Origin: Closterium sp. NIES-65
Lineage: Eukaryota; Streptophyta; Zygnematophyceae; Desmidiales; Closteriaceae
Assembly (NCBI GenBank): GCA_948144175.1
Contig: CANXME010001985.1
Coordinates: 186,001-250,000, forward strand
Length of the DNA: 64,000 bases
Direction: 5' to 3'
The notes under the pieces are model-generated. The model was not told the DNA's origin, did not search any database, and saw only the letters and a list, made by a program, of their open reading frames with translations. Position numbers and translations under genes: made by a program. This document shows, in pieces, positions 10,346 to 37,469 of this stretch. Numbering within the stretch: the first letter of the stretch is position 1; each line of letters starts with the position of its first letter.

Positions 10346-13300
10346 CTCCTCCGCAATTTCCAGGAACTTGCGCTTCCTGCGCCGGCCATAACAAGGGGGA
10401 AGGGAGAATGGGGGAGGGCGGGGGAAGGGAATGTGGGGGGCGAGGGGTGGGAGGGAGGTCAAACGGGAGGAGCATTGGGGGGATGATTTTTGAGGCGCCT
10501 GTTGAGGCGATTTTTGAGGCGCCTCAAAAGGGAATGCGGGGGGCGAGGGGTGGGAGGGAGGTCAAACGGGAGGAGCATTGGGGGGATGATGGACAGGGTT
10601 ACACAGGTCAGAGCCCAAGTTCCTGTCACTTTAGAAAGGGTTACTGTCTGTTGAAACTTGAAAGCACTGTGCAACTGCAAAAAGGATCAAACTTGAAAGC
10701 TCTGTGCAACTGCCTCACCTGTATTTCTTCAAGTCCTCGTCGTTCAACAGCTCTGCTGCAGCATCAGTGGCACCCCGTTCCCAGCAACCAGCAACAGCGC
10801 CAGCAGCACCACCACCCTGCGATAACCTCACCTGTATTTCTTCAAGTCCTCATCATGCAACAGCTCTGCTGCAAAGCTCTGCTTCCTCTCCCTCCTCGTC
10901 AGCCTGCTACTGTAGAAATCTGCTGCTCCCTCCACCACTGTGCCTATCTGAAATTGAGCAAGACATGTGGCAAAAAGGGACATATGGGAGCGAGGTGGGT
11001 GGGTAGAGCAAGAAAGGGGGGGTAGAGGGGTGGGGGGGAGCGGGCATATGGGTGTGTGCTTCCTCTCCCTCCGTGTCAGCCTGCTGCTGTAGAAGTCTGC
11101 TGCTCCCTCCACCACTGTGCCGATCTGAAACATGAAAATGACGACGAGTGAAGAGTGCAAATGACGACGAGTGAATGACAATCAACTCTGCTTCCGCTCC
11201 CTCCTCGTCAGCCTGCTGCTGTAGAAATCTGCTGTTCCCTCCACCACTGTGCCGATCTGGTGATGAGGAGAGGAGGACAAGTGAAGGAGGTAATGGAAGG
11301 GGCGGAACGCGTGGCGTTGTTGTGGGAAGGGGTTCAGGGGGGAAGAAGAACCTTCATATGCAAATGCTGATGACTGGAAAGGGCGAAAGATGACTGGAAA
11401 GGGCGAAAGATGACTGGAAAGGGCGAAAGATGACTGGAAAGGGCGAAAAATGACTGGAAAGGGCGAAAGATGACTGGAAAGGGCGAAAGATGACTGGAAA
11501 GGGCGAAAGATGACTGGAAACCAGAGCGAGAAGACAGGGAAAGCATTCGCACTGCCATGGCAAGAGAAATGGCACTCTTGGTGCTTGATAAACAGAACAG
11601 GTACCTGAAAGTGTGTCGGAAGCTTCTTAGAGTCTGCCGATCGATAATGTCTCTTGGGATCTAGAACGTTCCTCATCTGAACACAGGAGCACAGAGCAGC
11701 ACAGAGCACAGAGCAGCACAGAGCACAGAGCACAGTCACGAAGATCAGAGACAGTCAAGAGAATGACAGAGACGATCAGAATGCATTCACAATCCCAGGC
11801 ACTCACACAGATATTAGAGCAAAATACTCACTTTTGAGACGTCTCAAAACAACCCCTAGTCCGAGGCGAGCCGACACAGGTGTGTAGGTCGTCTCAAAAG
11901 CAAAATACTCATGGCTGTAGACTGAAACTGAAACTGAGATTTTGACTGAGACTGGGACTGGGAATGTGACTTACAACTGAGACTGAGACAGAAACACAGA
12001 CTGAGAAACAGAGGCAACACATTACCCGCAGCAACTGAAGCTCTGTCTTGATCTCAGGAGTTATATCCGGTGCAGGAAGGTTGTACCTGGGAGTCACAAA
12101 AACGAGCATTTTTTAAGAGCCTTTAAATTCAGCGAAGCGAAACCGCACATTCGACAACTGGATTTACAAGAGTTCTGTAGATACGAGTGCAACAAACAGG
12201 AAGCTCGCACTTAGTCCGACCATTGCAAGCTAGCTGGGTGGTGCACAATGCATAACACCACCCAGCCAGTCAGGCCAGCTCACCACTTGGGTCCGGCGGT
12301 GTTGGGTTTGTTCTTGCGAGCAATCTGTGCCAGCTTGTGAGGGTCTTTGTGGGGGAAGTACCAGCAACTGTAGGCTATAGCTACATGAAGGATGGTTCGT
12401 TATGAGGCGCCTCACTAAGAGCAACTCACCATTTCGGTCCGGCGGTGTTGGGTTTGTTCTTGCGTGCAATCTGCGCCAGCTTGTGAGGGTCCTTCGGGGG
12501 CACCTGCAACTGCCCCTCCACCCACTTCTCCCTCCCCTTCCCTCCCCCTTCCCCTTCCCCACCTCCCCTTCCTCCCCCTCCGCCTCCTCCTCCCACGCTC
12601 CCTTTCCCCTCTCCTCCCTCCCCTCCCTTACCTCCCTTCCCCTCCCCTCCCTCCTTCTCTTTCTGTTTGATAACAGACAATCGAATCCCAGTCGTGCTTC
12701 TAATGCCGCCCAGTTCGGAAGCTTCCCGCAAGACGATCCGTGCCGACCCAGTCGTGGCTACAGTGACTCCCCTGATGCCGGTGCTCTTCCCCCTCGCCAC
12801 GTCAGTCTTGCCCCTTGCCACGTCAGCACCAGCGCCGGGTTTTTGAGGGGGCGGTTTAGCTTTAGCAGGCTTGTTTTTGTGGCGAGAGTGTGAGAAAAGG
12901 GAGGGGGAAAAGAGGGAGGAGGAGAGGGAGGATAGGGAGAAGGGAGAGGAGGAGGAGGAGGAGGAGGAGGAGAAGGTGGAGGAGGAAGTGGAGGGAAGGG
13001 TGATTTTGGGTTCCCAAACTATGGGGGCGAAGGAGCGGGCGTAGTCGTCAAGTTTCCTGCAGATGAAGTGAGAAGGGGTGGAAGGAATGGAAAGAAGGGA
13101 TGAAGTTAGTGAGAAGGGATAGAAGTAAGGGCGTGAGGGATGGGGGCGAAGGAACGAGCATAGTCATCTAGTTTCCTGCACAGCTCGTGAGAAGGGATGG
13201 AAGGAAGGGTAACAGGAGAGTGTAAGTGTGTGAAGATCTCTTAACCAAAATCTTGCACAAAGCAAGCGCGAGGGTTTGGAGCTTGGGATGGGCCTGAAAT

Positions 13301-14611
13301 GTGTTTATTTTTCAGGGTTTGGGGTTTTGAGCATGGGTGGAGGAGTGTAGGAAGGAGGAAGGGCAGTGTGGTGGTACGATACACGAATGTGAGGTCCCAC
13401 GGGTCATGGCACGTCGTCACTTGCTCCCTCACACGGGCGAGTCTTACTTACTTTTGCCTCACCGCTTGCTCCCTCACACGGGCGACACTTATTCTTGCCT
13501 CACTGCTTGCTCGCTCAACAACATATACTCTTCCTCCCCTTCCTCACCCTCCTCACCCTCCTCCCCCTCCTGATAAAAGGTTTGTTATGAGACGTCTCAA
13601 CACGAGGCTTACTTACTTTTGCCTCACAGCTTGCTCGCTCAGTACCATATACTCTTCCTCCCCTTCCTCCCCCTCCTCGCCCTCCTCCCCCTCCTCGCCC
13701 TCCTCGCCCTCCTCGCCCTCCTCGCCCTCCTCCCCCTCCTCCCTCTCCTCTTCCTCTTCCTCCTCTCCCTCCTCGCCCTCCTCCCTCTCCTCGTCCTCTC
13801 CCTCCTCTTCCTCTCCCTCTTCCCCCTCCATCTCCTCATCTTCCTCCTCGCTTTCCCCTCCTTCATTCGGTCTTTCCTCCTCTCCTGTGTCCTCTCCTCC
13901 CCCCTCTGCTTCCGCCTCTGCGTCCCCCTCTGCTTCCGCCCCTTCTTCCGCCTCTGCTTCCGCCTCTTCTTCCGCCTCTCCTTCCGCCCCTGCTTCCGCC
14001 TCTTCTTCCGCCTCTCCTTCCGCCTCTGCTTCCGCCACTGCTTCCGCCTCTCCTTCCGCCTCTCCTTCCGCCTCTTCTTCCGCCTCTTCTTCCGCCTCTC
14101 CTTCCGCCACTGCTTCCGCCTCTCCTTCCGCCTCTCCTTCCGCCTCTCCTTCCGCCTCCACTTCCGCCTCTCCTTCCGCCTCTCCTTCCGCCTCTCCTTC
14201 CGCATCTCCTTCCGCCTCTCCTTCCGCCTCTCCTTCCGCCTCTTCTTCCGCCTCTCCTTCCGCCTCCGCTTCCGCCTCTACTTCCGCCACTGCTTCCGCA
14301 TCTTCCCCATCTAAAGCATCCTCAACTTCTTCCTCCTCCCCACTCCTCTCCTCCACCCCCTTGTCCCCATCATCCTCCCCATTTTCCGCCCCTCCTTTCC
14401 CCTCACCGCCTAACAAAGCCCCCTCATCATCCGCCCGATCCGCGCTTCCCTCGGATTCTCCCCCCGCTTCCGCCTCTTCCACCGGAGCCGCGCTTCCTCC
14501 TGATTTTTCCCCCGCTTCCGCTTCTTCCACGTTACGCGAGACTTCCACCGGTTGCTCCCCCGCCTCCTGCACCTCTTGCTCTGATGCTACTCCCGTCATT
14601 CCTAAAACCAA
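10265..14611 (-). CDS. FCF2: Fcf2/DNTTIP2-type pre-rRNA processing protein
   Basis: The conserved C-terminal half of Fcf2 (TdIF2/DNTTIP2) reads across GT-AG introns on the minus strand. NKPNTAGPKW (to about 12428) joins YNLPAPDITPEIKTELQLLR (about 12090-12030), then MRNVLDPKRHYRSADSKKLP (11677-11605). The IGTVVEG and DFYSSRLTRRERKQ block follows (three copies, 11256-10870), then AAELLxDEDLKKYR and RKRKFLEIAEENQRKGRRH (10376-10265). Family members act in the nucleolus in 35S pre-rRNA cleavage for 40S subunits. The N-terminal exon (about 13613-14611) encodes a 300-residue Glu/Ala/Gly tract made by a hexanucleotide-type repeat; acidic N-termini are usual in this family but not this long. Exon edges are duplicated throughout, so the exact exon set and the start are uncertain. 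Confidence 0.82.
10427..10590. repeat. 61-bp tandem duplication split by a GAGGCGCCTC palindromic insert
   Basis: 10427-10487 and 10530-10590 are direct copies differing at about one base. Between them is a 42-bp insert (10488-10529). It starts TTTTGAGGCGCCT and ends AGGCGCCTCAAAA, so its ends are inverted repeats. It also contains a complete TTTTGAGGCGCCTCAAAA palindrome at 10512-10529. It lies in an Fcf2 intron. Confidence 0.9.
10713..11256 (-). repeat. amplified Fcf2 exons (IGTVVEG exon x3, DEDLKKYR exon end x2)
   Basis: The exon beginning IGTVVEG and running through SSRLTRRERKQ occurs at about 11256-11185, 11128-11060 and 10955-10870, each preceded by an AG acceptor. The exon end AAELL..DEDLKKYR followed by a GTGAGG donor occurs near 10826 and again near 10713. 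Copies differ at scattered sites, and the intron lengths between them differ. Confidence 0.85.
11370..11525. repeat. 20-bp tandem repeat in an Fcf2 intron
   Basis: About eight copies of TGACTGGAAAGGGCGAAAGA, almost identical. There are no spacers, so it is a minisatellite and not a CRISPR-like array. Confidence 0.92.
11831..11899. mobile_element. 69-bp micro-transposon with GAGACG terminal inverted repeats
   Basis: The insert begins CTTTTGAGACGTCTCAAAAC and ends GTCGTCTCAAAA, giving inverted termini of about 11 bp. It is flanked by 12-bp direct repeats GCAAAATACTCA (11819-11830 and 11900-11911). About 35 bp of unrelated sequence lies inside. It has no coding capacity. The left end already contains a full palindrome (11832-11849), so it may itself be a nested or collapsed copy. 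It lies in an Fcf2 intron. Confidence 0.75.
12279..12507 (-). repeat. duplicated Fcf2 exon end with palindrome at the junction
   Basis: The exon segment coding KDPHKLAQIARKNKP to the splice donor occurs twice (about 12500-12428 and 12365-12286). The copies are separated by a junction containing the perfect palindrome TGAGGCGCCTCA (12403-12414). Both copies keep a GT donor. Confidence 0.88.
13010..13185 (-). repeat. duplicated Fcf2 exon start (KLDDYARSFAPI)
   Basis: An AG acceptor followed by GAAACTTGACGACTACGCCC (about 13060) recurs near 13180 as GAAACTAGATGACTATGCTC. Both encode KLDDYARSFAPI. No palindrome is visible between them. Confidence 0.8.
13430..13665 (-). repeat. three copies of the Fcf2 exon-1 end, palindrome at one junction
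   Basis: Segments coding the end of the Glu-rich exon (SEQAVRQ plus GTAAGTAAG donor) lie near 13620, 13505 and 13450. The 13505 copy has lost the GT of the donor. The perfect palindrome TGAGACGTCTCA (13588-13599) sits between the first two, preceded by GGTTTGTTA. This is almost the same left flank as at the 12.4-kb junction (GGTTCGTTA). Confidence 0.85.
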
Positions 14612-15007
14612 GAGAATGGAACTTCTATCTTCAGGTAACGTTGGAGAGTCAAGAAGGCCAACAAGAAGAAAAAAGAGGGCTCTAATTTCCCGAGGGCTAC
14701 CCTAGAAACGCTCCTGGATCGATGCCACGCACCTAACCTTCAACGACAGAGGAAATCACTTCAGGTAATTTGCTGAAATGGCGTATCAGTGAAAGGTCTT
14801 TCTAGAAACCCGAAACCCTGCTAGACCCCCAAATGGATTTTGCGGTTCCATAAAACATTACCCGCTGCACCGGCGTAGTGTTTGCCTCAATTTTATGTCA
14901 TAAAATGAACCTACGCAACATATGGATATAGAGTAATCTTCATGTACTACATTGAAATAATGATAAAAAAATAACAGTCACAACAATATTTCAGTATCGA
15001 TGTGCTT
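14612..15007. other. spacer between Fcf2 and P5CR
   Basis: The upstream region of Fcf2 and the 3' flank of P5CR. It is A/T-rich around 14880-14990. No other gene is visible; an upstream Fcf2 leader exon could lie here. Confidence 0.4.
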
Positions 15008-18000
15008 CTACTTTGACAGCTCTTTGCTTCTTTCCGTGGCTGCAACTACTGCGTTCATCAACGTCGCTCGGAATCCTCCCTTCTCCAGTGCATAAATGCC
15101 TGCAATCGTTGTACCTGTGCACAGAAAAACAAACGGGGGCGGGAGACGGGGGAGGGGAAAAGCTTGGTTGTGAGGCGCGGAATCCTCCCTTCTCTAGAGC
15201 ATGAGTGCCTGCAATCGTTGTACCTGTGTGCAAAAAAAATACATGGGGCATCATAAATAGCGGGCCAAGGTTGCCATGGAGATAACAACAAATGTATGCG
15301 TATAAAACACTTATGTGTTACCTCCAGGAGATGCCACTGAGTCCTTGAGTTGGCCGGGGTGCTTGCCCGTTTCCAATACCATCTTTGCAGATCCGTACAC
15401 CTGTATTGTGCAATTGAAAGGAGAGGGGGGAAAGAGGGTTGCCAGCATTAACAATAAAAGGGGGGCCACCGAGCGCTTCAGTTGGCCGGGGTGCTTGCCC
15501 GTTTCCAATACCATCTTTGCAGATCCGTACACCTGTATTGTGCAATTGAAAGGAGAGGGGGGAAAGAGGGTTGCCCGCATGAACAATAACAGGGAGGCCA
15601 CCGAGCCTTTGAGTTGGCCGGGGTGCTTGCCAGTTTCCAATACCATCTTTGCAGTTCCGTACACCTGGGTTGTGCGATAAAAGGGAGAGGAAGGGAAGAG
15701 GTACGTCCCTCGGCTTGCTTGCAGTATCATCAGCAGGGTTGCTTGAATAGCTCGACAAAACATGGCCTACACTTGCATAAATCAAGGTTATTGCGACAAA
15801 GAAAAGGCAATTTACGTACGGTTTGAGCGGCGAGCGAGAGAGCAACGTCTCTTGGCAGGCCAGCAGCCACCCCTCCATCCGCCAGCGCCTCTATCGCCAT
15901 GAACACATATGCCGGGCCGCTGCCACTGAGAGGGGGAGAGGGGAGTGGGGTGGACGGCGGTACAGAGAGGTGAGAATGGGCAGGCCGGCAGCCACTCCTC
16001 CATCCGCCAGCGCCTCTATTGCCATCAACACATATGCCGGGCCGCTGCCACTGAGAGGGGGAGCACGGGGGCCAAGGTGACGGAGGGAGGTGGGAAAGAG
16101 GGGGATGATGCGTGAAGAATAGAGCAAAATCGCCTGGCAGGCTGGCAACATCGCCACCAGCAGCCACCCCTCCATCCGCCAGTGCTTCTATGGCCATGAA
16201 CACATATGCCGGCCCGCTGCCACTGAGAGGGGGAGATGTGGGAGGGGGTAGAAAGGAAACCAGGCGCAGGTTCAGAAGAGAGCAGGAGACAGCATTAAGT
16301 ACAGCTTCTCCCCACCTGCTGGATCTCACCCCACCGCTTCAAACACCTTGTGAGTACATAGCTCCGTAAACCATCTATACACCGTACAAGACACACCATG
16401 CCATGCGTTCTTTCCGAGAATTCCTAAAAGCGTACCTGAGCCCAGTGATGGTGTCAAGCAGCTTCTCCTCCACCTGCTTTATTTTCCCCACCGCTTCCAA
16501 GTTCGAACATGCACCGCACCGCTATACACACCTTCTGAAAACACACTATCCATACCTGTCAACACCATGTCAGCCATACCTGAGCTCATCATCATGCTTA
16601 CCTGAGCCCAGTGACGGCATCAAGCAGCTTCTCCTCCACCTGCTGTATTTTCCCCACTGCTTCAAACATGTGCCGCACCAACGCTGCATCCCTGCTTGAG
16701 TCGATTCAGAAGGAGCATCGTTGCATCAGCAGCCATACCTGAGCCCAGTGACCGCATCCAGCAGTTTCTCCTCCACCTGCTGTATCTTCCCAACTGCTTC
16801 AAACATGCGCCGCACCAGTGCTGCATCTTCGGCTGTCGCCTTGCCTCCCAGGCTCATGGCTGGGTGGGGAAGAAGTCGAGATGGGGGAGATGCCAGGGGT
16901 GGAAGGAAGAGGAAAGGTTTGGCGCTTCAAACATGCGCCGCACCAGCGCTGCATCCTCTGCCGTCGCCTTGCTGCCCAGGCTCATGGCTGGGGAAGGTTG
17001 TCAGAGAGGGGAGAGGTTAGAAGGAAGGAAATGACAGAAGCTGGAAGAAGCCGTGAGTGGGAATACCAAGGGAGGTTCGTTTTAAGAGCGTTGAACATGT
17101 TACGCACCGCACCAGTGCTGATAGGTCTGGCAGCAGTGGCCGTGAGCAAACTTCTGAGTCGACTCAAAAGTCAGGACCAGTGCTGATAGGTCTGGCAGCA
17201 GTGGCCGTGAGCAAGAACCTGTGCTGGCTGCACTTTCTTTTGCTCCGTCTCACCTGCTGCTGTTTGCCCCACCAAGCAGGGGGTATTCGGCATGACTCGA
17301 ACAATCTTTGCCTCGTCACCCGCCCACTGCTGCAGATTCGCAATCGTCACCCCCGCAGCAATGGACACAACCAGGTGGGTGCTTGTTGTGGGTGCTTGTT
17401 GGTCTGTCAGCAATCCTTCTCACCTGCTGCTGTTTGCCCCACGAGGCACGGGGTATTCGGCATGACTCGAACAATCTTCGCCTCGTCACCCGCCCACTGC
17501 TGCAGATTCGCAATCGTCACTCCCGCAGCAATGGACACAACCAGGTGGGTGCTTGTGATGGCGGCGCTGTCTCTCAGTTCCGATAGTACCGCCTTCACCG
17601 TGTGGGGTTTCACAGCAATGAAGATCACATCGCTGGCTGCTGCAAGCTGTATGGATAGAGGAAAGGGAGAGACAGGAAGGAAGGGGGGGAATGGAGCGAA
17701 GGGAGGGAATCAATGGACACAACCAGGTGGGTGCTTGTGATGGCGGCACTGTCCCTCAGTTCTGACAGCACGGCCTTCACACTGTGGGGCTTCACTGCCA
17801 TAAATATGACGTCACTGGCTGCAGCGAGCTGGGGGAAGGAAGACAGGGAAAGGAGGGAAGAGGCATGGAGAGAAGGCCAGCAATGGACACAACCAGGTGG
17901 GTGCTTGTGATGGCGGCGCTGTCCCTCAGTTCTGACAGCACGGCCTTCACTCTGTGGGGCTTCACAGCAATGAAGATCACATCGATGGCTGCTGCAAGCT

Positions 18001-19004
18001 GTATGGATAGAGGAAAGGGAGAGACAGGAAGGAAGGGAGGGAATGGAGCGAAGGTGGCGGCGCTGTCCCTCAGTTCCGACAGCGCGGCCTTCACTCTGTG
18101 GGGCTTCACTGCAATAAAAATCGCATCGCTGGCTGCTGCGAGCTGGACGGAAGAGAGGGAAGAAAATGTAACGCTTGGAAGGGGGGATGATGAAGAGGAC
18201 AGGGAAGGGACAGGGACGGACAGGGGATGGGAGGGAATGGGACAACAACAGATTTTAACACGAGATAACAAGAGAGGACGATGCAGCATAACTCTTTGCA
18301 CGTAGTCTTAGCAGCCATCCCCATCTCAGCGAACACCGCCAGTCACTCGTGACTGAGGTCCATGGCACTCATGTCGCTCATGTCGCTCATGTCGCTCATG
18401 TCGCTCATGTCGCTCATGTTACTCATGTCGCTCATGTCGCTCATGGTTACTCAGGGAAAGGATCAGTCGGCATACCTCTTTGCACGTAGTCTTAGCAGCC
18501 ACCCCCATCTCGGCAAACACGGCCAGTCGCTCCTGGCTGAGATCCATGGCGCTCATGTCGCTCGCTGCTACAACCCCCGCGGCGCTCATCCCCCGCGCCA
18601 GCGCCTCCGCCATCTGCCCCGCGCCTGTGTAATGGGGAAAGGGGAGAAGGAGGGGATCCTGTGAACAGGGGAAAGGGGAGCCTCATGCGCTCATCCCCCG
18701 CGCCAGCGCCTCCGCCATCTGCCCCGCGCCTGTGCGTTGGGGGGACTTTGCCGCGGAGAAGGGGGAGAGGGGGCGTATGTGGAGGGAAATTTGTAAGATT
18801 ACACCACTATCAAGCCGGGAAATTCAGAGAACCGAGCACGCAGGTCACAACGAGACGCGTATGCGAGTGGCCACGTCGCGTTTCGGGGCAGTCAACGATA
18901 GTCGGCAACGGTCAGAGAATGAACAGGGTGAATTTCGAGTCGACGACGCCGGTGCGCAATCACTCACCCACGAACCCCAAGCGCACCCGCTTCGCCTCCG
19001 ACAT
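15008..19004 (-). CDS. P5CR: pyrroline-5-carboxylate reductase
   Basis: Catalyses NAD(P)H-dependent reduction of pyrroline-5-carboxylate to proline, the last step of proline synthesis. Exon 1 (19004-18968, [13 protein letters not shown]) joins exon 2 at 18627 to give the Rossmann motif [16 protein letters not shown]. Later exons encode [69 protein letters not shown], the family signature [35 protein letters not shown], then [19 protein letters not shown]. The TAG stop is at 15010-15008. The order matches plant P5CR end to end. Almost every internal exon is present in two to five tandem copies, some with ruined donors, so only a subset can be spliced into a normal protein of about 275 residues. 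It diverges from the gene at 19823. Confidence 0.9.
15052..15230 (-). repeat. P5CR last-exon start, two copies
   Basis: [16 protein letters not shown] is encoded at about 15115-15070 (used; it continues to the stop) and again at 15222-15173 (broken off). Between them is GGTTGTGAGGCGC, resembling half of the palindromic junction motif. Confidence 0.8.
15342..15680 (-). repeat. P5CR exon ([15 protein letters not shown]) in three copies
   Basis: About 106 bp at 15346-15451 is repeated nearly perfectly at 15479-15584, and in more diverged form to about 15680. All three retain the [19 protein letters not shown] reading and an upstream AG. The first two are so alike that the event is recent. Confidence 0.9.
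15812..16230 (-). repeat. P5CR signature exon ([19 protein letters not shown]) in three copies
   Basis: Copies start near 16229, 16055 and 15930. Only the last (15930-15812) continues through [16 protein letters not shown] to a GT donor. The other two break off after the ADGGVAAG stretch. Confidence 0.9.
16270..16990 (-). repeat. P5CR exon ([19 protein letters not shown]) in four to five copies
   Basis: Copies lie near 16985-16915 (start only), 16865-16740 (complete, donor GTATGG), 16690-16601 (start lost, donor GTAAGC), 16510-16430 (diverged, donor GTACGC) and 16330-16270 (decayed). An imperfect palindrome TGAGTCGATTCA (16697-16708) sits exactly between the second and third. Confidence 0.87.
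17111..17214. repeat. 39-bp direct repeat with TGAGTCGACTCA at the junction
   Basis: 17111-17149 and 17176-17214 are identical. Between them is the perfect palindrome TGAGTCGACTCA (17155-17166) inside a 26-bp spacer. It lies in a P5CR intron. Confidence 0.95.
17238..17565 (-). repeat. P5CR exon ([20 protein letters not shown]) in two copies
   Basis: About 150 bp at 17238-17393 recurs at 17415-17565 with few differences. Both encode [18 protein letters not shown] and [10 protein letters not shown]. Confidence 0.9.
17542..18150 (-). repeat. P5CR exon ([19 protein letters not shown]) in four copies
   Basis: Copies lie at about 18148-18052, 18000-17880, 17832-17714 and 17650-17542. Each starts after an AG with LAAAxDxIF. 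They differ by conservative changes ([52 protein letters not shown]). Three include [10 protein letters not shown]. Confidence 0.9.
18300..18735 (-). repeat. P5CR exon 2 in one complete and two partial copies
   Basis: The complete exon is 18627-18477. A start-only copy ([14 protein letters not shown]) is at 18735-18689. An end-only copy ([15 protein letters not shown]) is near 18345-18295; there the donor GAGGTATGC has become GAGTTATGC and can no longer be spliced. Confidence 0.88.
18366..18446. repeat. 9-bp microsatellite (CATGTCGCT)n
   Basis: About eight tandem CATGTCGCT units between P5CR exon-2 copies. The unit matches coding sequence of exon 2 (near 18556), so it may have grown from it. 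Confidence 0.85.
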
Positions 19005-19822
19005 AATGCCAAACCGCGTTCCGACTGAAAATGCGGGGAGTTCTGGGCGGCGGAAATGGAGGGGAGGATCCACACCCAGTTGGAGAACTAAGGCAAGAAT
19101 GAAAGAGGATATTCCTTCAGGTAAAATGGAGGAGATTTGGGTCGGACGGATTATTTCAACATAAGGCTTTCCAGAGCATGCGACATGTGTGGGCTGAGGT
19201 CGACGAAGTGTACATAAAGCACTTCAATCTTATATTATTGACCGGAATTCGAATGTTTTACAACACAATGCGTAGTAGTTGAATGAATTTTTCAAACTTC
19301 TCGAATCATCTGCAGGATTTTTTATCTCCTTTTTAAATTCATGAAATGGATCTCATATATTTAATCAAACTTGCATGTTATTCAACGCAATCCCTGAGCT
19401 TCCTCTCCAAATGCTCACATTGCTTGCTTGCAAGTCTGATTCAAACGACCCTTTATCGAGCAGCTTCCCTCTTTCATTTACACTTCACTTCTACTCCTGT
19501 CCTGTTCAGTCCCCTTCCCACATGAACTACGGCACTCGCCAGACTGTTTGTTAGCTCCCCCTTCGCCCACCTTCTCTCGCCGCCGATCCGTCGTTTCGCC
19601 TCAGGTGAATTGGCGCGCATGCACTTTCTGTTTCCTTTGATCTCACTCACTCACTAAAACATGTGTTTAAATGGTGTGTAAGGTTGCGGAATCGCCCACG
19701 ATAGGTTTTTCCTTCCTCCTCATTCCCAACCCCGGGAAGCGTTTTTCGCAGGGGTGAACCTGGTCCAGGATAGGAAGGCGGATAGCTGCTAAGAGTTGCG
19801 CGTCCATCCGCCGTTACCATAA
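19005..19822. promoter_or_regulatory. divergent spacer between P5CR and the 19.8-kb gene
   Basis: An 818-bp interval between two head-to-head starts, A/T-rich at 19210-19400. It presumably holds both promoters. No convincing core element can be named. Confidence 0.4.
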
Positions 19823-20194
19823 ATGGCGTCAGTGCTGGCCTCTGCTGTAGTGTCACTAAGAAACGAGGAGCCACGTACAATCAGTGTAACCTCCGCAGAT
19901 GTTCAAAGCGCCTTGGTTGCAGCTCAAGCAGACGCAGCAGGACCGGCGACAGATATGGCGATAGGGGAGGAGAAAGCACAAGAAGCTGCTAAGGTTAGCC
20001 TTTCAGACACGATTGGTCTTCTCAAGGCTCGTATTGGAGCTTGCTTAAACGAGTACATTGAGAAGTATGAAGGAGGAGGTGGGAATGGGGAGGAGGGGGA
20101 TGCAGGACTCTGGGATGGTGAAGAGAATGGAGAGGAGGAAGAGGACGAGGGTAGTAAAAGGAAGAAGAAAGGCAAGAGAACTGGCGGAAAATGA
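19823..20194 (+). CDS. small protein with acidic-basic C-terminus, unrecognised
   Basis: A 123-residue single-exon reading frame starting MASVLASAVVSLRNEEPR. An amphipathic middle (about residues 25-80, including TIGLLKARIGACLNEYIEKY) looks helical. After that comes an Asp/Glu/Gly-rich stretch ending in a Lys-rich tail. Size and layout (short structured part, disordered acidic end) recall the KEOPS subunit GON7, but I see no diagnostic motif and do not assign it. It is divergent from P5CR, and the frame is open with no repeats, so it is probably a real gene. Confidence 0.55.
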   Translation: MASVLASAVVSLRNEEPRTISVTSADVQSALVAAQADAAGPATDMAIGEEKAQEAAKVSLSDTIGLLKARIGACLNEYIEKYEGGGGNGEEGDAGLWDGEENGEEEEDEGSKRKKKGKRTGGK

Positions 20195-20529
20195 GTTACC
20201 TACAAGATTGCCAGAATGAAAGGCTTCTTTTTTTATTGCAACATGGTACCGGTATGGTTGGTTTATGTAATGTGTTGCAGCAGTTGCTAGCTAGAGCAGC
20301 AGGGGCTTGTATTTACCTGTGAAAAAATGAGGGAAGGTGCATCACAATGGTATCTTTCAGTGTTGAGATAGGTCTGGTGCACAATTAAAGAGCAGGGCCA
20401 AGTGTGAAGGTACAGTAGCATATTAAGACCTTGTCAGTGTACAATGTCCTGCCTAACCTAGCAATTCATTCCTCTAGTTGACAGGATAATAACATTATTC
20501 CCTAATACGGTACAACTGGCTGCTTAACA

Positions 20530-20650
20530 GCAGCTTTCTAGCGCTCAAACAGGGCCTTGAGGCTCACAGACACCAGCAGAAGATTTTTCAAACATCTCAG
20601 CATTACGGTAGGCTGCCTCACAACAGCTTCTTGCGCTCAAAGAAGGCCTT
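20530..20650 (-). repeat. decayed copy of the p24 last exon beyond its stop
   Basis: 20530-20578 repeats the end of the p24 last exon (AGCGCTCAAA..GGCCTTGAGG..CACACCAGCAG) with gaps. Between it and the real exon is TTTTTCAAACATCTCA (about 20585-20600), three changes from the palindrome TTTTGAGACGTCTCA. The rest of 20195-20617 is A/T-rich 3' flank with no gene. Confidence 0.65.
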
Positions 20651-22836
20651 GAGGTGCCAGAGCTGCAGGGCAGCCAGGCTCACACACACCAGCAGCGACA
20701 CGATGCTCAGCCAAGCCACCCTTGAGTTGGTCACCTCATTCAAATCACGCATGTCCGATTCTCTGGTGGGTGGAACAGAAGGTTTTAAGCAGGACAAGGC
20801 AGACAGAAAAGGTGGCCTGTCAGGAAGAAAACGTAGCTATATCTATGCAAACCAACGGCTGACACTGCAACCGTGATTGATTCAAAGCCTTATCACCATT
20901 ACACTCCAAGGCCCCCTCTGCCATCACAATCTATGCAGCAAACGACCACCTCCCCTCATATGACCCAAGATAGAACTTTCCGAATTCCCCATCTCGCAAG
21001 TACGGTACTCCTACTCTCAGTTATGCAGGGATTCACTTACCTCTTGCGAAAGTATGCCATTTCCCCCCGAATGGACCTCACTGCCTCATCCAATTTGCGG
21101 AGCTCCAGGGCGATGCCCTTAATGATCACGTCACAGTGCAGGCATGGTGGTGATGGGTGGAGTGAAGGAGAATGAGGACAGTACCATGACAAAATATTTC
21201 GAAGCAGGCTATAGCATCACACTGAACAATCTAGAACGGTTGGGAAGAGCACAGGCCGACCATGCATGTTCAAATCTAGCCAAACAACACCCACTACAAC
21301 ACACACACATCATAGGCATGCAGGTTAAGAGTCAAGCACAAAACAATCACCCTCACAGCCATTACCCCTTCCAAATCTGACCAAGTTCATGGTAGAAAAC
21401 GATCTGTCCATGTGCACCTAGAACAGCCATGCACAATGCAAAACATTTTTCTCAGACCGTAATGACTCACATCAAGTTTATCCTTCTTGGCGATTTTGCC
21501 CCAGTCCTTAGCTGCTACACCAATCTTCCATTCAAGCTCAACCTGTAGCATCACCACACAGAACGTTGGAGCAGAACGTGTAAGATGAATCATGCTGTAA
21601 GATGTGTGAAGCAAAGTGAATGTGTATGTTGGTGGCGTCAATTTCTGGTAGACATGGCCAAGTGATGTGCACACCCGTCAATGTGCTATTGATAGAGCTT
21701 TTAACCGTTCATTGTTCATCCCCTTGCCTTGACCCTTCCTAGCCTTTCCCAACTGGCTCTCTCACCATGACGCTGTGGATCTCTTGCGGATGGTCCACGG
21801 GTAGCCAGAAAGATGCCAACTACTGCCCCGTCTCCTTGATCGCAAACACAACTTTTGAGACGTCTCAGAATATCACGTCTCAAAACTAGACGTTTCAAGG
21901 CTTCCTCACCATGACGCTGTGGATCTCTTGCGGATGGTCTACGGGTAGCCAAAAGCAGGCCATGTACTGGCCCGTCTCCTTGGTTGTGAATCCGAAATGC
22001 CCTTCTTCCACGCTGTCCTGCCAGTGCAGCTGATGCCCGTACGGTGACGTCACCTGCCATGTGGTTATGCAAGGCGGAGGTGAAAATGTTTTGATACGCA
22101 TAGGTCCAGATTTTGTCATAGTGGCCATCTTCCACGATGTCGTGCCAATGCATGTGATGGCTGTACAATGTCGTCACTTGCCATGCCATCACGCAAGGTT
22201 AGCAGTTTGGAAAATAAATGCCTATGCAAACCGGAATGCTGGAACCGCGATTAAAGGACTGCTATTTCGTTCAAATGGCAAGGAGGAGATACATGAGATG
22301 CAGGGGGAGATGCGGAAGTTTCGAAAGAAACTGCCTTTTTGCAGGAGGAGAGGAAAGGCAGTGGCAAGACAGGGAGCGGATTCTAGCAATGGGGGAACAA
22401 CAGAGCCATATTCAAGATACTGGGAGTTATAAAAAAAACACAACTTGATCAACGTGCGTACCAAACAAAAATTAAAAAGAGAGACCGTGTTGAACGACGC
22501 GATCTGCGATCCGACCTTCAGCATTGAAAGCGGGTAGTATAAATCCAACCGGAGGCCTTGGAAACAAACTTATAACATATAATTCTACCAACCTAAGTAG
22601 CCGAGACGTACCTTGGCTGTGACCCTGCCGGTTTCGTCCAGCCGGTTCCCATGAGAGTCGTGCTTTACTATAGAATATGTTCCTACAACGAGGGTTCCCT
22701 CCTGAATCTCCTCCCCTAAACATTTCGAGTAGGCCGTGACCTCGAATTTGACAGCCAGACAACCCCGTTGGCAGCACGAAATGGCGATCACGGCAGCTAG
22801 AAGAAAACCAAGGAAGCGTCTCAACGGTGCAACCAT
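20618..22836 (-). CDS. p24 (emp24/gp25L) family cargo receptor, delta type
   Basis: Five exons (22836-22612, 22053-21910, 21542-21471, 21117-21041, 20762-20618) give 220 residues. A signal peptide (MVAPLRRFLGFLLAAVIAIS) leads into the GOLD domain with two cysteines (CLAVKFEVTAYSKCLGEE). It has the typical GHQLHWQDSVEEGHFGFTTK stretch and a coiled coil (GIALELRKLDEAVRSIRGEM). A transmembrane segment (WLSIVSLLVCVSLAALQL) precedes the cytosolic tail FFERKKLL with FF and dilysine signals. Such proteins cycle between ER and Golgi in COPI/COPII vesicles. All junctions keep phase with GT-AG introns. Exon 2 edges are duplicated (see 21761-21992 and 22100-22190). Confidence 0.92.
21761..21992 (-). repeat. 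duplicated p24 exon-2 end with palindromic insert at the junction
   Basis: About 87 bp (21905-21991) is repeated at 21761-21847. Between them is CTTTTGAGACGTCTCAGAAT (from 21852) ending CACGTCTCAAAA at 21885. This is a 34-bp insert with inverted ends of about 10 bp, followed by a further half-motif ACGTTTCAAGG. Perfect core TGAGACGTCTCA at 21856-21867. Confidence 0.92.
22000..22190 (-). repeat. duplicated p24 exon-2 start
   Basis: The exon start (GTGACGTCACCG, HQLHWQDSVEEGH) at 22053 has a diverged upstream copy at about 22175-22105 reading VTTLYSHHMHWHDIVEDGHY, also after an AG. The upstream copy then runs into stop-free but unrelated sequence. Confidence 0.8.
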
Positions 22837-23490
22837 GGTGGCAAGCTCGATCGAGCAGGAGATAGGAGTTATTTGGTGTCAATGTGAACACAACTTCAAA
22901 TGCGCGGCCGAAACCAGAGCACGGCGTCTTACGCGGCGACCACAGGAAACAAGCTCCCGAAGAATCACAAAATAGAACTGCGATTCAAGAGCGCTGATTA
23001 AAGTTGGAGATGGAATCTAGGACTAGACCGTGGTGATAACTTCCACTACAGAACTGGAATGCAGGAGATATCTAGGTCTAGAATGTGCTTATTCTTCTGA
23101 TCAGGCTTTTTGGGATCAGGTTGGTGAGCAAGAATGTGTTCTAGAGGTTCTTGATAACTCAAAACCATGCTCAACCGTTTGTGAATTTTTATAAGCGCAA
23201 ACCACCTCGTGAGCCATCTTTTTAGTAACTTTTAGGTCGGCGGGGAGGTTGGTAGCGGTTCAGTACGCTTTCGACGTAAACACAAAAGCAGAAAGAACCA
23301 CCCAAACGTCTATCTGTGGCTAGATTCAATATCAACACAGCAAAACTTGATGAAGCTTTTGCCTTTGTCCCTTAATTATTTCATTTCGTTATTCAGAACA
23401 ATCATACGGTAGCAACCTACAATAGCCTATAAAAACGCAAAAACTGAACACATGACACAACAGAACAGAAGTATAGTTGGCAGTGTGTTA
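22837..23490. other. spacer upstream of the p24 gene
   Basis: I see no gene. It presumably contains the p24 promoter and the 3' flank of the SNARE gene. Confidence 0.4.
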
Positions 23491-28874: not shown

Positions 28875-28989
28875 GAGGGAGGAGGGGGGGCTGTCAATAA
28901 TCTCCTCCCACCCCCCCAACCCCCTGCTACCACACTTGTATACTACGACTTTCTGACCCTCCTTATTATGAGCACAACTGCTCTCTTCC

Positions 28990-29345
28990 GCCTAGTTTTC
29001 CTGGTCTTCCTCATCCTCCTCATCCTCTTCTCCATCCTCACCATCCCCTTCCTCATCATTCACTTCTCCATAAGCTTCTAATTGGCCATCCTCCTCTCCA
29101 TCCTCCTCTCCACCCTCCCCTCCATCCTCCCCTCCATCCTCCTCGTCATCCTCCTCGCCATCCTCCTCTTCATCTTCCTCGTCCTCATCATCCTCCCCCA
29201 TAAAAGCTTCCTCGTCTTCACCATCCTCTTCATCCTCACTACTCTCCATCCCCTCCATCAAATCCAAGCACGCCTCATACTCTCCGTTTTCCTCGTCCGT
29301 CCACTCATCCTCCTCATCCTCTTCGATAGCTATTCTTCAGACAGC
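28990..29345 (-). pseudogene. inverted fragment: acidic tail of an F-box/LRR gene
   Basis: On the minus strand this reads an acidic tail containing DEWTDEENGEYEACLDLM and EEAFMGEDDEDEE. It is clearly related to the C-terminus of the intact gene (EWTDDENNGEYDACLDLM, about 32215-32275). It sits between the two plus-strand paralogues in the opposite orientation. It was therefore inverted away from paralogue 1, or is the remnant of a third copy. Confidence 0.75.
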
Positions 29346-29539
29346 TATCTTCGATGTCCTTAGATTTCGGGTCGTAGGCCTCTCCGAAACAGGCCATGCT
29401 CAGGTTTCTCTTGTGGTTGCTTAGCATTCACTGCTGAAAACAACTAACTGTGACTTCTATCTTTAGTGTGAGCTTGACCTAAGATAGAAACCAGACTTAG
29501 CAAGAGCCAGTTAAGCTTTTCCACCTTCTGCTGCTCAAA

Positions 29540-32344: not shown

Positions 32345-33132
32345 GGATGGCAGGGTGGAGGTAAGGATGGCCAACTAGGAGCTTGAGGAGAAGTGGATGA
32401 TGATGAAATGGATGGTGAGGATGGATAAGGGAACGTATACGTTGAAGAAGGCAAGACTAACGGGGATGAAGAGGGTGACGAGGAAGTGCCAAGAGGATGA
32501 AGAATATGAAATGAAAGGGGATGGGAATGAAGAAGATGAGGAGGGTGAGGCGCATGAAGAAGAATATAGTATATCTGTAGTATACAAAAAATAGAAATAA
32601 TATGTAATGTATAATTTAGAATATGAATAATATTAGCTATATACTGTAAGTATGTTTGATTTGGGGACTGCATTTATTACCTATGCTTTGTACCATCTCT
32701 GTCTACCATTGCTTCTTCGCGAATGTACACGTGGTAAAACCCACTACACTAAGAAAGACTACGCTGTGCTGTGTCGACACCATTGCAACGAGGACAGCAA
32801 GCGCGTACAACCGAACATCCCAAGGGCATATTTTCGTGCTCTCGAACTTCTGGAACCGTTCTTGATGTTAATTCACCATCGTACAACGTAAAGAACCTTA
32901 CGGAACCGCTTGCAGGTGAAGTTCTGCTGCATCTCGTATGATCGTCTCCAACATCGTCTGTGTGACCGCCATAACACAGGAGATCAGCTTTCTGTATGCG
33001 CAGATAGCCTTACATCACCAGGAGTCCGTTGCTCCTTTGCCCTAAAAAAGGTTTCGTGTAGCTGTTTGGAGCTTATCGAATCAAAGGTATCTATTGCGGC
33101 CATTAAGCGCTTTCGTTCCAAGGCATTCGATC
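32345..33132. other. spacer between the F-box/LRR gene and TFIP11
   Basis: 32345-32600 continues as GAT/GAA-rich sequence like the acidic tail, beyond the stop. 32600-32650 is A/T-rich. No gene is recognised in the rest. Confidence 0.4.
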
Positions 33133-36100
33133 ATGGACGTTGACGGTGACGGAGAGCAGCGGATGCGGTTCAGCCTGGACGGAGATTTCGACGACGGCCA
33201 GTTTATCAACGGAGAGTTTTTCTCCTCGTCGCGCCGTCAGGGCCGTCAGCAGACCCGCGACGACGTCCTTTACGGTGTCTTCAACGAAGCATCTGATGAC
33301 GAAGATGACGACGACGACGAGGAATTCGGCGGTGGGGGTAAGAGACGGAGGAAGAAACGTCGCGGAAAAGACGATCTGATGGGAAAAGGCGATTTTACGA
33401 AACCCGTTAATTTCGTGTCGAAAGGTACAGTAAATCCGAACCTGGATCGGGATGCTGTAGAGGAAAGGCCCGGATTGGGAGCCAAGCCGCAGGAGCCGGC
33501 AGAGGATGAGGATCGGAGCGGATTGGGTCGGACGGGCCTCGGGTTTGGTGGAGCAGGCTTGGGATTCACGTCCGGGGGTTCCGAACCTGAAAGGCCAGGT
33601 TTGGGAGCCAGGGGGGAGGCACAAGGAGAGGAGGAGGAGGAGGAAGAGGATCACTTAGCCAAGACTGCTTTCGGCCAGCGGCTAAGGGAGCGAGCAGAGC
33701 AGAGGAGGGAGATGGAGAGGGAGCGAGCGAAGCAGGAGAAGCAAGAGGCGTCGTTTTTCGCGCAGCAGAAGGCGAATAAAGGGGTTGCTGGCGGGCTTTT
33801 CGGCTCTGGAGGTGGGGGAGGGGGAGGGAAGGGTGCTGCTCATGGGGTTGGAACGTTCGAGAAGCACACTAAAGGAATAGGGATGAAGCTTTTAGAGAAG
33901 ATGGGGTACAAGGGAGGCGGGCTGGGTAAGAACCAGCAGGGTATAGCGAAGCCGATAGAAGCGAAGCTTCGCCCGAAGAACATGGGTATGGGCTTTAACG
34001 ACTTCAAGGAGAAAGAAGTCGGGTTACCACCCCCGCCGTCCGGGAAAGACGGGGAGGTGTTGGGAGGGGAAGGGGAGGGGGGAGTGGCTTTGGAGGTTGT
34101 GGAAAAGAGAGGGAGAGAGAAGCTATGGAAGAAGAAATTTGCTGGGAGGAGGAAGGAGTATAAGACAGCGGCTGAGCTGCTGGAAGAGAAGCAGGCGGAG
34201 GGGCGGGAGGTGACTCAGACGATCCTGGACATGCGTGGAGCACAGGTGGGTTGCAGTTGTTGCGACTGGCTTTTGTGGTCGACTTGACAATAAGATTATA
34301 ATATGAGAAGCATGCGGAGGGGAGAGAAGTGACTCAGACTGTTGGACATGCGCGGAGCACAGGTGGGTTGCTGTTGTTGCGACTGGCTTTTTGTAGTCGA
34401 GTTGAGATAAGTCTCTTATGAGAGAAGCAGGCGGAGGGGCGGGAGGTGACTCAGACGATCCTGGACACGTGCGGAGCCCAGGTATGCCGTTTTTGTTGCG
34501 AATGGTCGGTGTGTTGACGAATAAGGACCAGCTGAACGGGGAGCACAAGGTTCAAGATGATGACACGCCCATGCCCGAGCTGCAGCACAACCCCTGTCAC
34601 CTGTCGTGTATGCTCGTCTATCTCTGTGTGACGTGCCCCCCCAGCTGCACCACAACCTCACCCTCGTGTCTGTTATTCTTTTCACTCTCTCTGTTCCCTG
34701 CCCAGGTCCGTGTGTTGACGAATATGGACCGGCTGAACGAGGAGCAGAAACTGCAAGAGGACGACACGCCGATGCCGGAGCTGCAGCACAACCTGCGACT
34801 GGTGGTGGATCTAGCAGAAGCAGACATTCAAACCATCGACAAGCGCTTGCGATTCCAACGAGACTCGCTCACCGCTCTCAAGCAGGAGCGCGACCGCACG
34901 CAGCAGCGCAAGCAGCAGCAGGCGCAGCAGCTAGTGGATCTCCAGAGGATTGTTGGGGTGCTGGAGAATGTTTTGTCGTCTGCCCCTCCGCCGCTGCCGC
35001 CGCCGTCGACGGCGTCGGCTGAAGCCCTCGCGCAGGACTCGCACGCGATTGCGACATCTGTCGTGACGCCATTGGCTGCGCTGCGGAGGCTGAGGGAGCA
35101 GCATCCCGAGGAGTTCAAGATGTATAATGTCTCGGCGGTGGCGTTGGGGTTTGTGCTTCCCCGTCTGGCTCCGCTTTTCCGCACCTGGAATCCCCTTGCC
35201 CACCCGTCCCACGGTCACGCTGTGCTATCCTCCTGGCGTTCTGTGCTTGCACGGGATGTAGGGGGAAGAGGAGGAGGAAAAGGTGAGAGTGACGAGGAGA
35301 GTGGGGCGATTTTTGCTGACGTGGCACTGGCTGATTCGGTGGCAGATCCGGGAGCAGCCGCAGGAGGGGTGGGAGGGGCGCCTGCTGAGATGGACCCATA
35401 CGCTCGCCTCGTCGCAGATCTCGTGCTGCCAGCTATCAGATCCGCAGTGGTCAATCTTTGGGAGCCTCGGGAGCCCGAGCCTCTCCTGAACTTCCTCGAC
35501 ACGTGGCGCGCTCCCGTGCTGCCATCTGTCCTCCTGAGAACGATTCTCGCGCACCTGGTGTTCCCGAAGCTGGCAGCCACGGTGGAGGCTTGGGACCCGA
35601 GGCTAGAAACCGTACCTGTCCACCAGTGGCTGCACCCGTGGCTCCCGTACCTAGGCTCTCAGCTCGAGACGCTCTACCCAACCATACGCTTCAGGCTCGG
35701 ATCTGCCCTCACCGCATGGCATCCATCCGACTCGTCCGCTCTTGCAATGCTCGCCCCGTGGAAATCTGTGTTTGACGCTGCGAGCTGGGACACTCTAGTG
35801 AGTCGGTCTATCGTCCCAAAGCTTATACAATTACTGCAGACTGAGTTCTTAGTGAATCCGCAGCAGCAGCAGCTGGAGCCGTTTCATTGGGCCATGTCGT
35901 GGGCGGGTGTGGTCCCCACGCGCCACCTCATCGCCTTGCTGGATACTGCCTTCTTCCCGCAGTGGCACCAGGTGCTCTACCATTGGCTGTGTGCAAACCC
36001 TAATTTCGATGAAGTCACCCGGTGGTATCTGGGATGGAAGGCGCTTTTTCCCACCGAGATTTTAAGCTCGGAAAGGGTGCGGCAGCAGCTGAACGTCGCT

Positions 36101-36637
36101 TTAGATATGATGAATCAGGCTGTAGAGGGGATGCCGGTTCTGCAACCCGGCGTGAAGGAGAACGTCTCTTACTTGAGAGTTTCGGAGCAGCAGGCGTTTG
36201 CAGATGGGGTTGGGGCAGGGGCAGGGGGAGGTGTATCTGGTGCAGGCAGTGCTGCTGCTGGGGGAGGTGGTATTGCAGCAGGTGGGGTTGGTGCGGGTGG
36301 TGGGATGGGTGGTGCTGGTGCAACCAGTGGTAGCACATTGACAGGAGGGAGAGGGGGTGGAGGAGGGAGGACGGGGATGTTGCACCAGGAGGATGAGAAG
36401 GAGCTTTCTCTACGCGAGGTCGTGGAGCGATTCGCGCTGCAGAACGACGTGAAATTCCTGCCGAAACCCGGCCGCACGCATGAAGGCATGCCGGTGTTTT
36501 TGTTTGGCACGATCAGCCTGGTGATAGATTCTCCGAAGCAGCTGCTGATGGCGCAGGATGATAAGCATGCGTGGGTGCCTGTGTCGTTGCAGCAGGTGTT
36601 GGATATGCATAGGAAGAAGGGGGGGAGGTGGGCTTAG
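33133..36637 (+). CDS. TFIP11: G-patch spliceosome disassembly factor TFIP11/NTR1 (STIPL1-type)
   Basis: Two main exons (33133-34245 and 34706-36637) give about 1014 residues. The N-terminal TIP domain reads [35 protein letters not shown] and [11 protein letters not shown]. The G-patch (about residues 240-285) reads [20 protein letters not shown] and [16 protein letters not shown]. The second exon opens [17 protein letters not shown] and [17 protein letters not shown], the GCF-like region. The end carries [20 protein letters not shown] as in the family C-terminus. The protein activates the PRP43 helicase to release the intron lariat complex in the nucleus. It is longer than the Arabidopsis and human proteins because of Gly-rich inserts near residue 705. 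Exon-edge duplications occur in its intron and 3' flank. Confidence 0.92.
34183..34480 (+). repeat. TFIP11 exon-1 end in three copies
   Basis: GAGAAGCAGGCGGAGGGGCG through TCCTGGACATGCG and a GTGGGTTG donor occurs at about 34190-34265, 34306-34387 and 34423-34480. Each junction holds a degenerate TGGTCGACTTGA or TAGTCGAGTTGA followed by ATAAG and ATGAGA, apparently eroded forms of the TGAGTCGACTCA junction. Confidence 0.85.
34508..34795 (+). repeat. TFIP11 exon-2 start in two copies
   Basis: 34508-34595 reads [20 protein letters not shown] and is a diverged copy of 34712-34795 ([20 protein letters not shown]). Only the second runs on into the long exon. Confidence 0.85.
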
Positions 36638-36920
36638 GGTGCAGAACATGGTAGGATGTCTGAGTCGATTTAAAAGTCCTCTGAAGCAGCTGCTGATGGC
36701 GCAGGACGATAAGCATGTGTGGGTGCCTGTGTCGTTGCAGCAGGTGTTGGATATGCATAGAAAGAAGGGGGGAAGGTGGGCTTATGGCGCAGAACATGGG
36801 ATGACTTATGAGTCAACTCAAAGTTCCTCTGAAGCAGCTGCTGATGGCACGAGACGATGAGCATGTGTAGGTGGGTGCCTGTGCTGTTGCAGCAAGTGTT
36901 GGATATGCATACTAATAGAG
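36530..36920 (+). repeat. TFIP11 C-terminus and 3' end in three tandem copies
   Basis: A 129-bp segment (36530-36658, including the stop codon) recurs at 36677-36805 and from 36824 to about 36920. The junctions are TGAGTCGATTTAAAAG (36661-36676) and TGAGTCAACTCAAAG (36809-36823), both members of the palindromic family. Confidence 0.92.
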
Positions 36921-37321
36921 GGGGAAAGGTGGGCTAAGCTAGCGGTCTTGCATAGTTTTTGGTTGATCATGTTTATCTTGGCCCCCTTTTGGCCAATGGC
37001 ACTGCTGCAGTTTGAGCGTTGATGAGGTTTTTAATGATTGTGCGCACATCTATTGCCTTTACCCTTTTCCACATGCAGTATTTTATTATGTAAGAGAGCA
37101 ATGAGGACAAGAATGTTGGACTGCTGAGCGCGCGTTATGCCCGCTCCATGATATTGGAGCTTATCCATCTGCTGAAAGATGTAGTTTTCAATAGCAGCCC
37201 TGTACTTGTGCGAGTGCTTGTAATCATTGAGTTGGTATCTTAGCTTCAGCCACCGTACTTCTGCATATAATGAAACCGGGCAACTTTAAGCGTATGGACC
37301 AATTCACTAACTTGCGGCAAC

Positions 37322-37358
37322 GCAGAATCCACCAGAAGGCAGGCTTGGTGGATTCTGC
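37322..37358. repeat. 12-bp inverted repeat
   Basis: GCAGAATCCACC (37322-37333) and GGTGGATTCTGC (37347-37358) are perfect complements with a 13-nt loop. It lies in non-coding sequence just upstream of the SINE. Confidence 0.85.
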
Positions 37359-37469
37359 TTTGCCACAACCGAAAAAAATCTTCATCAACTGCCCGCTGCC
37401 GTGGATCCTGTCTGGAATCTGCGAGGCAGCGCATTTTCCGTGGCAGAATCGGCCTTGGAAAACTGGAAG

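Follow-up and report, generated by a model that had tools for sequence, protein, structure and literature searches.

Transposases produce target duplications of fixed length, and MITEs and fold-back DNA transposons, which are short and have inverted ends, are flanked by such fixed-length duplications. LINE insertions leave duplications of variable length, and the non-LTR retrotransposons, which insert by target-primed reverse transcription, combine variable duplications with an element body and one defined 3' end. Tandem duplications with filler are usually read as break-repair accidents, and the filler, if there is any, varies from event to event. We know of no long flanking duplication among the features of bacterial REPINs. 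Passages of PMC8355091 show that, in mouse and human cells, breaks with complementary 3' overhangs give rise to small tandem duplications, and they cite work on rice by Vaughn and Bennetzen. For the non-coding DNA of organelles, very short selfish palindromes are described in parts of PMC2670323 and PMC2800124.

The window (the whole 64,000-nucleotide stretch of DNA analysed here) contains a shared palindromic insert with inverted ends that lies between direct copies of local sequence, is absent after the second copy, and accompanies duplications of variable length. An earlier sequence-only reading had proposed one recurring insert with a local duplication of widely varying length, and about eight events support this. 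The six perfect palindromes of the form TGAG-N-CG-N'-CTCA (alternatively spelled TGAGNCGN'CTCA) that it reported are all present where it placed them, as are the near-perfect ones at 16697-16708, 36661-36676 and 36809-36820. They are far above chance, as was claimed, although the expected number is 0.027 under a first-order Markov model and not 0.015. The outer arm TGAG is found in 6 of the 28 perfect palindromes of at least 12 bp in the window, and the next commonest arm is found twice. The variable base differs between sites (G, A or T between inserts) and is uniform among the half-sites of one insert; it matches between the two arms of each of the nine copies, the three imperfect palindromes included, again as first noticed.

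With the worn copies included, the family has a 22-bp consensus of approximately ACTTTTGAG-N-CG-N'-CTCAAAAGT (scan form ACTTTTGAGNCGN'CTCAAAAGT; as a search pattern, ACTTTTGAGNCGNCTCAAAAGT). Wear is limited to the outer arms at 12.4, 13.6 and 21.8 kb, where the 12-bp core is perfect, and extends to the core at 16.7 and 36.6 kb. Scanning the whole window with the consensus identified six places with at most five mismatches (17150, 10510, 11830, 21851, 36804 and 36656), all of which are duplication junctions, against a mean of 0.03 places in 30 simulated windows. Two more places appear at six mismatches, 10486 and 13583, both within inserts (0.47 expected), while at seven mismatches the yield of two family sites and three places away from junctions is at chance level (4.7 expected). 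Since the consensus was built from the same sites that the scan recovers, the scan adds only that there is no good copy elsewhere in the window. The half-site TTTTGAG-N-CG (TTTTGAGNCG) has nine exact occurrences in the window, all inside family inserts, versus a mean of 0.335 and a maximum of 4 for 200 permuted motifs. With one mismatch allowed there are 25 half-sites, 15 in family inserts and 10 elsewhere; two of the latter (15168 and 22089) fall in duplication spacers that were scored as lacking the palindrome, and may be worn relics or chance matches. The enrichment of 12-mers with at most one mismatch is mild (8 versus a mean of 3.0, with 8 reached in 2 of 100 shuffles), and the force of the case lies in the perfect palindromes and their position. 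The inserts and their flanking copies are listed in the table.

Table. Inserts of the palindrome family and the direct copies that flank them
Feature	Position	Strand	Remarks
Left copy, 61-bp duplication	10427..10487	+	60/61 identical to 10530-10590
42-bp insert	10488..10529	.	Outer ends inverted, 13-bp perfect arms; perfect 18-bp palindrome 10512-10529; motif TTTTGAGGCG three times direct at 12-bp spacing (middle one with one mismatch) and once inverted
Right copy, 61 bp	10530..10590	+	Flank alignment
Left copy, 12-bp duplication (13 with one ambiguous base)	11819..11830	+	12/12 identical
69-bp insert	11831..11899	.	Inverted ends CTTTTGAGACG / CGTCTCAAAA(G); perfect 18-bp palindrome 11832-11849
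Right copy, 12 bp	11900..11911	+	Flank alignment
Left copy, 95 bp	12276..12370	+	Flank alignment
Palindrome TGAGGCGCCTCA	12403..12414	.	Inside 51-bp insert 12371-12421
Right copy, 91 bp	12422..12512	+	Flank alignment
Left copy, 85 bp	13487..13571	+	Flank alignment
Palindrome TGAGACGTCTCA	13588..13599	.	Inside 39-bp insert 13572-13610
Right copy, 85 bp	13611..13695	+	Flank alignment
Left copy, 104 bp	16587..16690	+	Overlaps P5CR-like coding piece (minus strand)
Worn palindrome TGAGTCGATTCA	16697..16708	.	Inside 33-bp insert 16691-16723
Right copy, 104 bp	16724..16827	+	Overlaps same P5CR-like coding piece at 16741-16860 (minus strand)
Left copy, 39-bp duplication	17111..17149	+	39/39 identical
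26-bp insert	17150..17175	.	22-bp near-palindrome ACTTCTGAGTCGACTCAAAAGT plus 4 bases
Right copy, 39 bp	17176..17214	+	Flank alignment
Left copy, 78-84 bp	21755..21838	+	Flank alignment
Insert core	21851..21898	.	12-bp palindrome 21856-21867 with full left arm; second right half-site 21876-21885, then worn third
Right copy, 78-84 bp	21899..21982	+	Flank alignment
Copy 1, 121 bp	36531..36651	+	Includes end and stop codon of TFIP11-like ORF 34418-36637
Worn palindrome TCTGAGTCGATTTAAAAGTC	36659..36678	.	22-bp consensus scan, flank alignment
Copy 2, 121 bp	36679..36799	+	148-bp unit shared with 36531 copy
Worn palindrome ACTTATGAGTCAACTCAAAGT	36804..36824	.	Probably copied from palindrome 36659..36678
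Copy 3, more diverged	36825..36935	+	Flank alignment

Local or gapped alignment of the flanks finds direct copies at every site, with lengths of 61, 12, ~93, 85, 104, 39, ~80 and 121 bp. The 36.8 kb site lies in a 148-bp tandem unit at the same offset as the site at 36.66 kb, and the two probably go back to a single event that was copied, so that the family represents about eight independent events. The lengths first proposed for 10.4, 11.8 and 17.1 kb agree with the alignment. The duplications put at about 87 bp at 12.3 and 21.8 kb exist, with lengths of 91-95 and 78-84 bp, and the 129 bp given for 36.5 kb has to be corrected to 121 bp. Nearly all sites had been placed between copies, and the two listed without a duplication, 13588 and 16697, are also between copies (85 and 104 bp). 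The placement exactly between the copies is true of the whole inserts at the three young sites, apart from four extra bases on one side at 17.1 kb, but older sites have extra bases. Between the 22-bp consensus and the copies, these number 27 on the left and 2 on the right at 12.4 kb, 11 and 6 at 13.6 kb, 1 and 10 at 16.7 kb, and 4 and 1 at 36.6 kb, with 12 on the left at 21.8 kb.

The comparison with control palindromes, run inside the window, bears out the association. In a flank test (score of at least 50, total gap of at most 60), eight of nine family sites lie between adjacent direct copies versus 2 of 22 other palindromes (Fisher p 5e-5). The ninth, at 11.8 kb, fails because its duplication is only 12-13 bp, and both passing controls are within tandem arrays (57.9-60.1 and 60.3-60.9 kb). 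The region from 10 to 23 kb is rich in duplications regardless of palindromes: of 1500 random positions in each region, 320 pass at 10.3-23 kb, 117 at 33-37.5 kb, 21 at 23-33 kb, 212 at 37.5-63 kb and 109 at 0.3-10.3 kb. That 320 random positions pass the same test might suggest chance or an assembly artefact in a duplication-rich region. This appears very improbable, since six perfect palindromes stand against 0.027 expected and 6 of the 7 family sites at 10.3-23 kb pass (binomial p 5e-4 at the regional random rate). The copies differ by 12-14% at some sites, so those duplications are old, and the variable base varies between sites, unlike a library adaptor.

At the sites inspected, the sequence after copy 2 has no palindrome, except inside the 148-bp unit, which includes the palindrome and was doubled again at 36.5-36.9 kb. 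It follows that palindrome and duplication arrived together, and that the palindrome is no older hot spot. Palindromes stall replication, and stalling at pre-existing ones could have produced the duplications; re-copying would leave a palindrome after copy 2, where other sequence is found, and would not explain why unrelated loci have one palindrome in common. We rejected this origin as scarcely credible. A snap-back origin was rejected as well, and hairpin-primed repair alone, one of the mechanisms first suggested, is a misfit: it would copy local sequence, yet unrelated loci share the same sequence.

Not every duplication has an insert. The segments 10300-23000 and 33000-37500 are dense in local duplications of about 40-180 bp, several of them over Fcf2, P5CR, p24 and TFIP11-like coding pieces, and the duplication list has none between 22.1 and 34.1 kb. 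Among 28 local duplications examined at 10.3-23 and 33-37.5 kb (28 of 31 rows, with 10654, of 25 bp, and the tandem arrays 11369 and 14430 dropped), the palindrome is in the spacer of 8 and missing from the other 20. The palindrome thus marks a subset, and duplication here also arises without the insert; the claim that the palindromes mark duplication junctions is upheld, but most duplications carry none. The 20 palindrome-free spacers contain no palindrome longer than 8 bp, and one 9-mer is common to three of them. Two of the 20 are young, 17244-17386 (~96%) and 18582-18629 (48/48).

The structure of the insert is clearest at the three youngest sites (copies 60/61, 12/12 and 39/39), where it measures 42 bp (10.4 kb), 69 bp (11.8 kb) and 26 bp (17.1 kb) and opens and closes with the motif, in inverted orientation, at most 4 bp from the duplication edge. 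At the edge of copy 1 it starts with TTTTGAG (10.4 kb), CTTTTGAG (11.8 kb) or ACTTCTGAG (17.1 kb), and at the edge of copy 2 it ends with CTCAAAA (10.4 and 11.8 kb) or with CTCAAAAGT and four bases (17.1 kb). The assignment to insert or target is ambiguous for two bases at 10.4 kb and for one at 11.8 kb. Of the six duplication edges at the young sites, five coincide with the motif end, to within one or two ambiguous bases, and the remaining one lies 4 bp away from it; six readable edges, from three young sites only and with positions that depend on alignment, are few. The inserts at 10.4, 11.8 and 21.8 kb exceed the palindrome (42, 69 and ~50 bp) and have extra half-sites inside, the one at 21.8 kb having one left half-site, two right ones 15 bp apart, and then a worn third. 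Terminal inverted repeats are 13 bp at 10.4 kb and 11 bp at 11.8 kb and are not readable at older sites. These three inserts fold more stably than shuffles (z -5.7 at 10.4 kb, -2.3 at 11.8 kb and -3.4 at 21.8 kb); at 11.8 kb the outer ends pair in the centroid structure but not in the minimum-energy fold, and at 21.8 kb it is an inner half-site that pairs with the left end. Three other inserts that were folded are not exceptional against shuffles (z -0.1 to -0.9).

Beyond the palindrome, little or nothing is common to the loci. A longer element hidden beside it was considered and rejected, since 140 pairs of flanks are near chance (12 with p <0.05 versus 7 expected, the lowest value, 0.003, being the floor of 300 shuffles). 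Weak hints of a shared flank are GGTTYGTTA, which precedes the palindrome on its left side at both 12.4 and 13.6 kb, and a 19-bp stretch that 11.8 and 13.6 kb have in common with one mismatch. No autonomous or longer member of the family was found in the window, and no Rfam family scores there at its gathering threshold; a known RNA in the 69-bp insert was dismissed, its one mir-722 match being far below that score.

The reading that we prefer, with a probability of roughly 0.5, is a fold-back micro-insert of mobile kind that has defined ends and enters a widely staggered break, where fill-in duplicates the target. Its ends would be [A]CTTTTGAG-N-CG...CG-N'-CTCAAAAG[T], inverted (also written CTTTTGAGNCG with inverted copies). 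It would enter a break with the two strands cut 12 to ~120 bp apart, and gap filling of the long overhangs would directly duplicate the intervening sequence and leave the insert at the junction. In its smallest form the insert would be two ends joined head to head, a 22-bp palindrome, and the longer ones (42, ~50 and 69 bp) would contain extra direct and inverted copies of the motif. Staggered cutting with fill-in, a described route to tandem duplications, is what we infer here, and our guess is that the insert is a very small non-autonomous mobile element. The same sequence at about eight separate duplication junctions, the motif ends at the young edges, the matching variable base, the folding of three inserts and a LINE-like reverse transcriptase frame with weak matches at 55.8-56.7 kb count for a mobile insert. 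The small number of readable sites, the spread of duplication length from 12 to ~120 bp, the failure to find an autonomous or longer member in the window, the extra bases between consensus and copies at five older sites, and the 20 palindrome-free duplications of the same region, two of them young, count against it.

Two other origins were weighed, and their order behind the mobile fold-back insert, organelle capture second and templated extension third, rests mainly on the five of six readable edges at the motif end. Ordinary staggered-break repair may make the duplications, with captured palindrome-rich scrap, such as mitochondrial or plastid DNA, as filler. This would account for reiterated, slightly varied, arm-matched palindromes and also for the 20 of 28 duplications that lack them. 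Parts of PMC2670323 report palindromic repeats in both organelle genomes of Volvox carteri, with nuclear copies put down to DNA transfer, and mitochondrial DNA capture at breaks is mentioned in a passage of PMC2671141. Random ends are expected of scrap, however, and not ends that fall at the motif, and the Volvox plastid repeats as described in those parts of PMC2670323 have loops of 3-5 nt and an average of 50 nt, while the palindromes here are loopless; we consider capture rather unlikely. Alternatively, a template-using enzyme (a reverse transcriptase or an end-joining polymerase) may add TTTTGAG-N-CG to both 3' ends of a staggered break, and the ends would pair through their self-complementary centre and be filled in, making the palindrome a repair signature and not a mobile element. 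The constant direction of the motif from each readable duplication edge, the self-complementary centre, and the repetition of the motif at 12-bp or 15-bp steps within two inserts suit such an enzyme. It is nevertheless improbable, as no template was found, the exact half-site being confined in the window to the inserts and Rfam giving no family at gathering score.

The window has a nuclear eukaryotic look, with conserved genes in short pieces and F-box/LRR-type ORFs. The minus strand of 10-22 kb holds pieces of Fcf2, pyrroline-5-carboxylate reductase (P5CR) and a p24 protein, and a TFIP11-like gene is present in two ORFs (33.1-34.3 and 34.4-36.6 kb). The closest solved structure for P5CR is 5bse, which we take to be from the plant Medicago (76.5 and 98.9 bits versus 43.9 and 64.1 for the next), and this makes a source among green algae or plants likely. 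A Copia-type reverse transcriptase is at 1.2-2.9 kb, and the TFIP11-like, F-box/LRR and Copia proteins have no confirmed relative in IMG/VR. The TFIP11-like ORF finishes, stop codon included, inside copy 1 at 36.5 kb, and the later copies lie downstream. The two copies at 16.7 kb overlap one and the same P5CR coding piece, by coordinates derived manually from the frames. Such copies over coding sequence indicate that the process can generate spare pieces of exons. At 17.1 kb the 39-bp copies are between two P5CR coding pieces and are probably in an intron.

Several other features of the window were observed. An open frame at 55788-56705 (minus strand) has an RVT_1 domain (9e-18), and its best solved matches, LINE-1 and R2, are weak (E ~2e-4). 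At 52230-52304 another, different 30-bp palindromic unit, GTGTCAGAATTCGAGTCTGACAC with an A-rich spacer, is repeated in tandem about 2.5 times. A piece of the TFIP11-like gene at 34184-34483 is in 2.5 tandem copies of 117 bp, with a GTCGAC/GTCGAG motif in the spacer that may be a worn relative of the palindrome. A large 48-bp minisatellite (47 copies) at 57887-60148 has long open frames on both strands without a Pfam match, and 11369-11520 is a nearly perfect 20-bp tandem array of 7.6 copies.

Searching with the pattern TTTTGAGNCGNCTCAAAA gave 11 stretches in IMG/VR and at least 120 in GTDB genomes, and GACTTNTGAGTCGACTCAAAAG has no match in IMG/VR. Among the matches listed (131 stretches, one match each, some loci being near-duplicates), 3 were dropped for having fewer than 60 bases on one side, and none of the remaining 128 is between direct copies. 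We take the TTTTGAGNCGNCTCAAAA matches in prokaryotic and viral contigs as chance.

It is possible, though doubtful, that the inserts are nuclear fold-back micro-elements, minimally two 11-bp ends head to head, that insert through breaks staggered by 12 to ~120 bp and thereby duplicate host-gene pieces the size of exons. The agent, either a mobile element or an end-extending enzyme without a set length of target duplication, would then repeatedly create extra exon copies. If true, the recurrence of an insert with defined ends would imply that some lineages have a specific agent that makes or seals breaks, and would link a mobile palindrome to the origin of duplicated exon pieces. The motif offers an easy way to detect such events, of various ages, in related genomes.

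In searches of open-licence literature, no title or opening of an abstract described the motif or the combination, and six motif strings had no match in the open-licence papers searched. The nearest systems each share part of the pattern. The inserts resemble organelle hairpin elements (Volvox repeats, sponge RHEs, and Allomyces and yeast elements) in size and palindromy, but those are organellar and these nuclear; the Allomyces elements, according to the part of PMC2800124 that treats them, have no flanking duplications, whereas each insert here lies between direct copies. REPINs (PMC3116915) are likewise tiny palindrome-built mobile units, but of bacteria.

Staggered-break repair, whether patch-mediated or by fill-in with CST and Pol alpha-primase, gives local direct duplications with a short insert as seen here. 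It explains the direct copies but not a fixed insert with defined inverted ends, and in place of the varying filler of plain repair there is one 22-bp consensus at about eight events. MITEs share the inverted ends, and the 69-bp insert, whose ends measure 11 bp and whose duplication measures 12 bp, could be taken for a MITE, but the duplications here have no fixed length (12, 39, 61, ~80, 85, ~93, 104 and 121 bp) and the smallest insert is without any interior. Non-LTR or SINE insertion matches the variable target duplication, and the window has a LINE-like reverse transcriptase frame, but instead of a body and one 3' tail the young inserts have 26-69 bp and two inverted ends. The fixed duplication length thus speaks against MITEs, the element body against LINE/SINE insertion, and the recurring filler against plain filler repair; a categorically new agent is conceivable.
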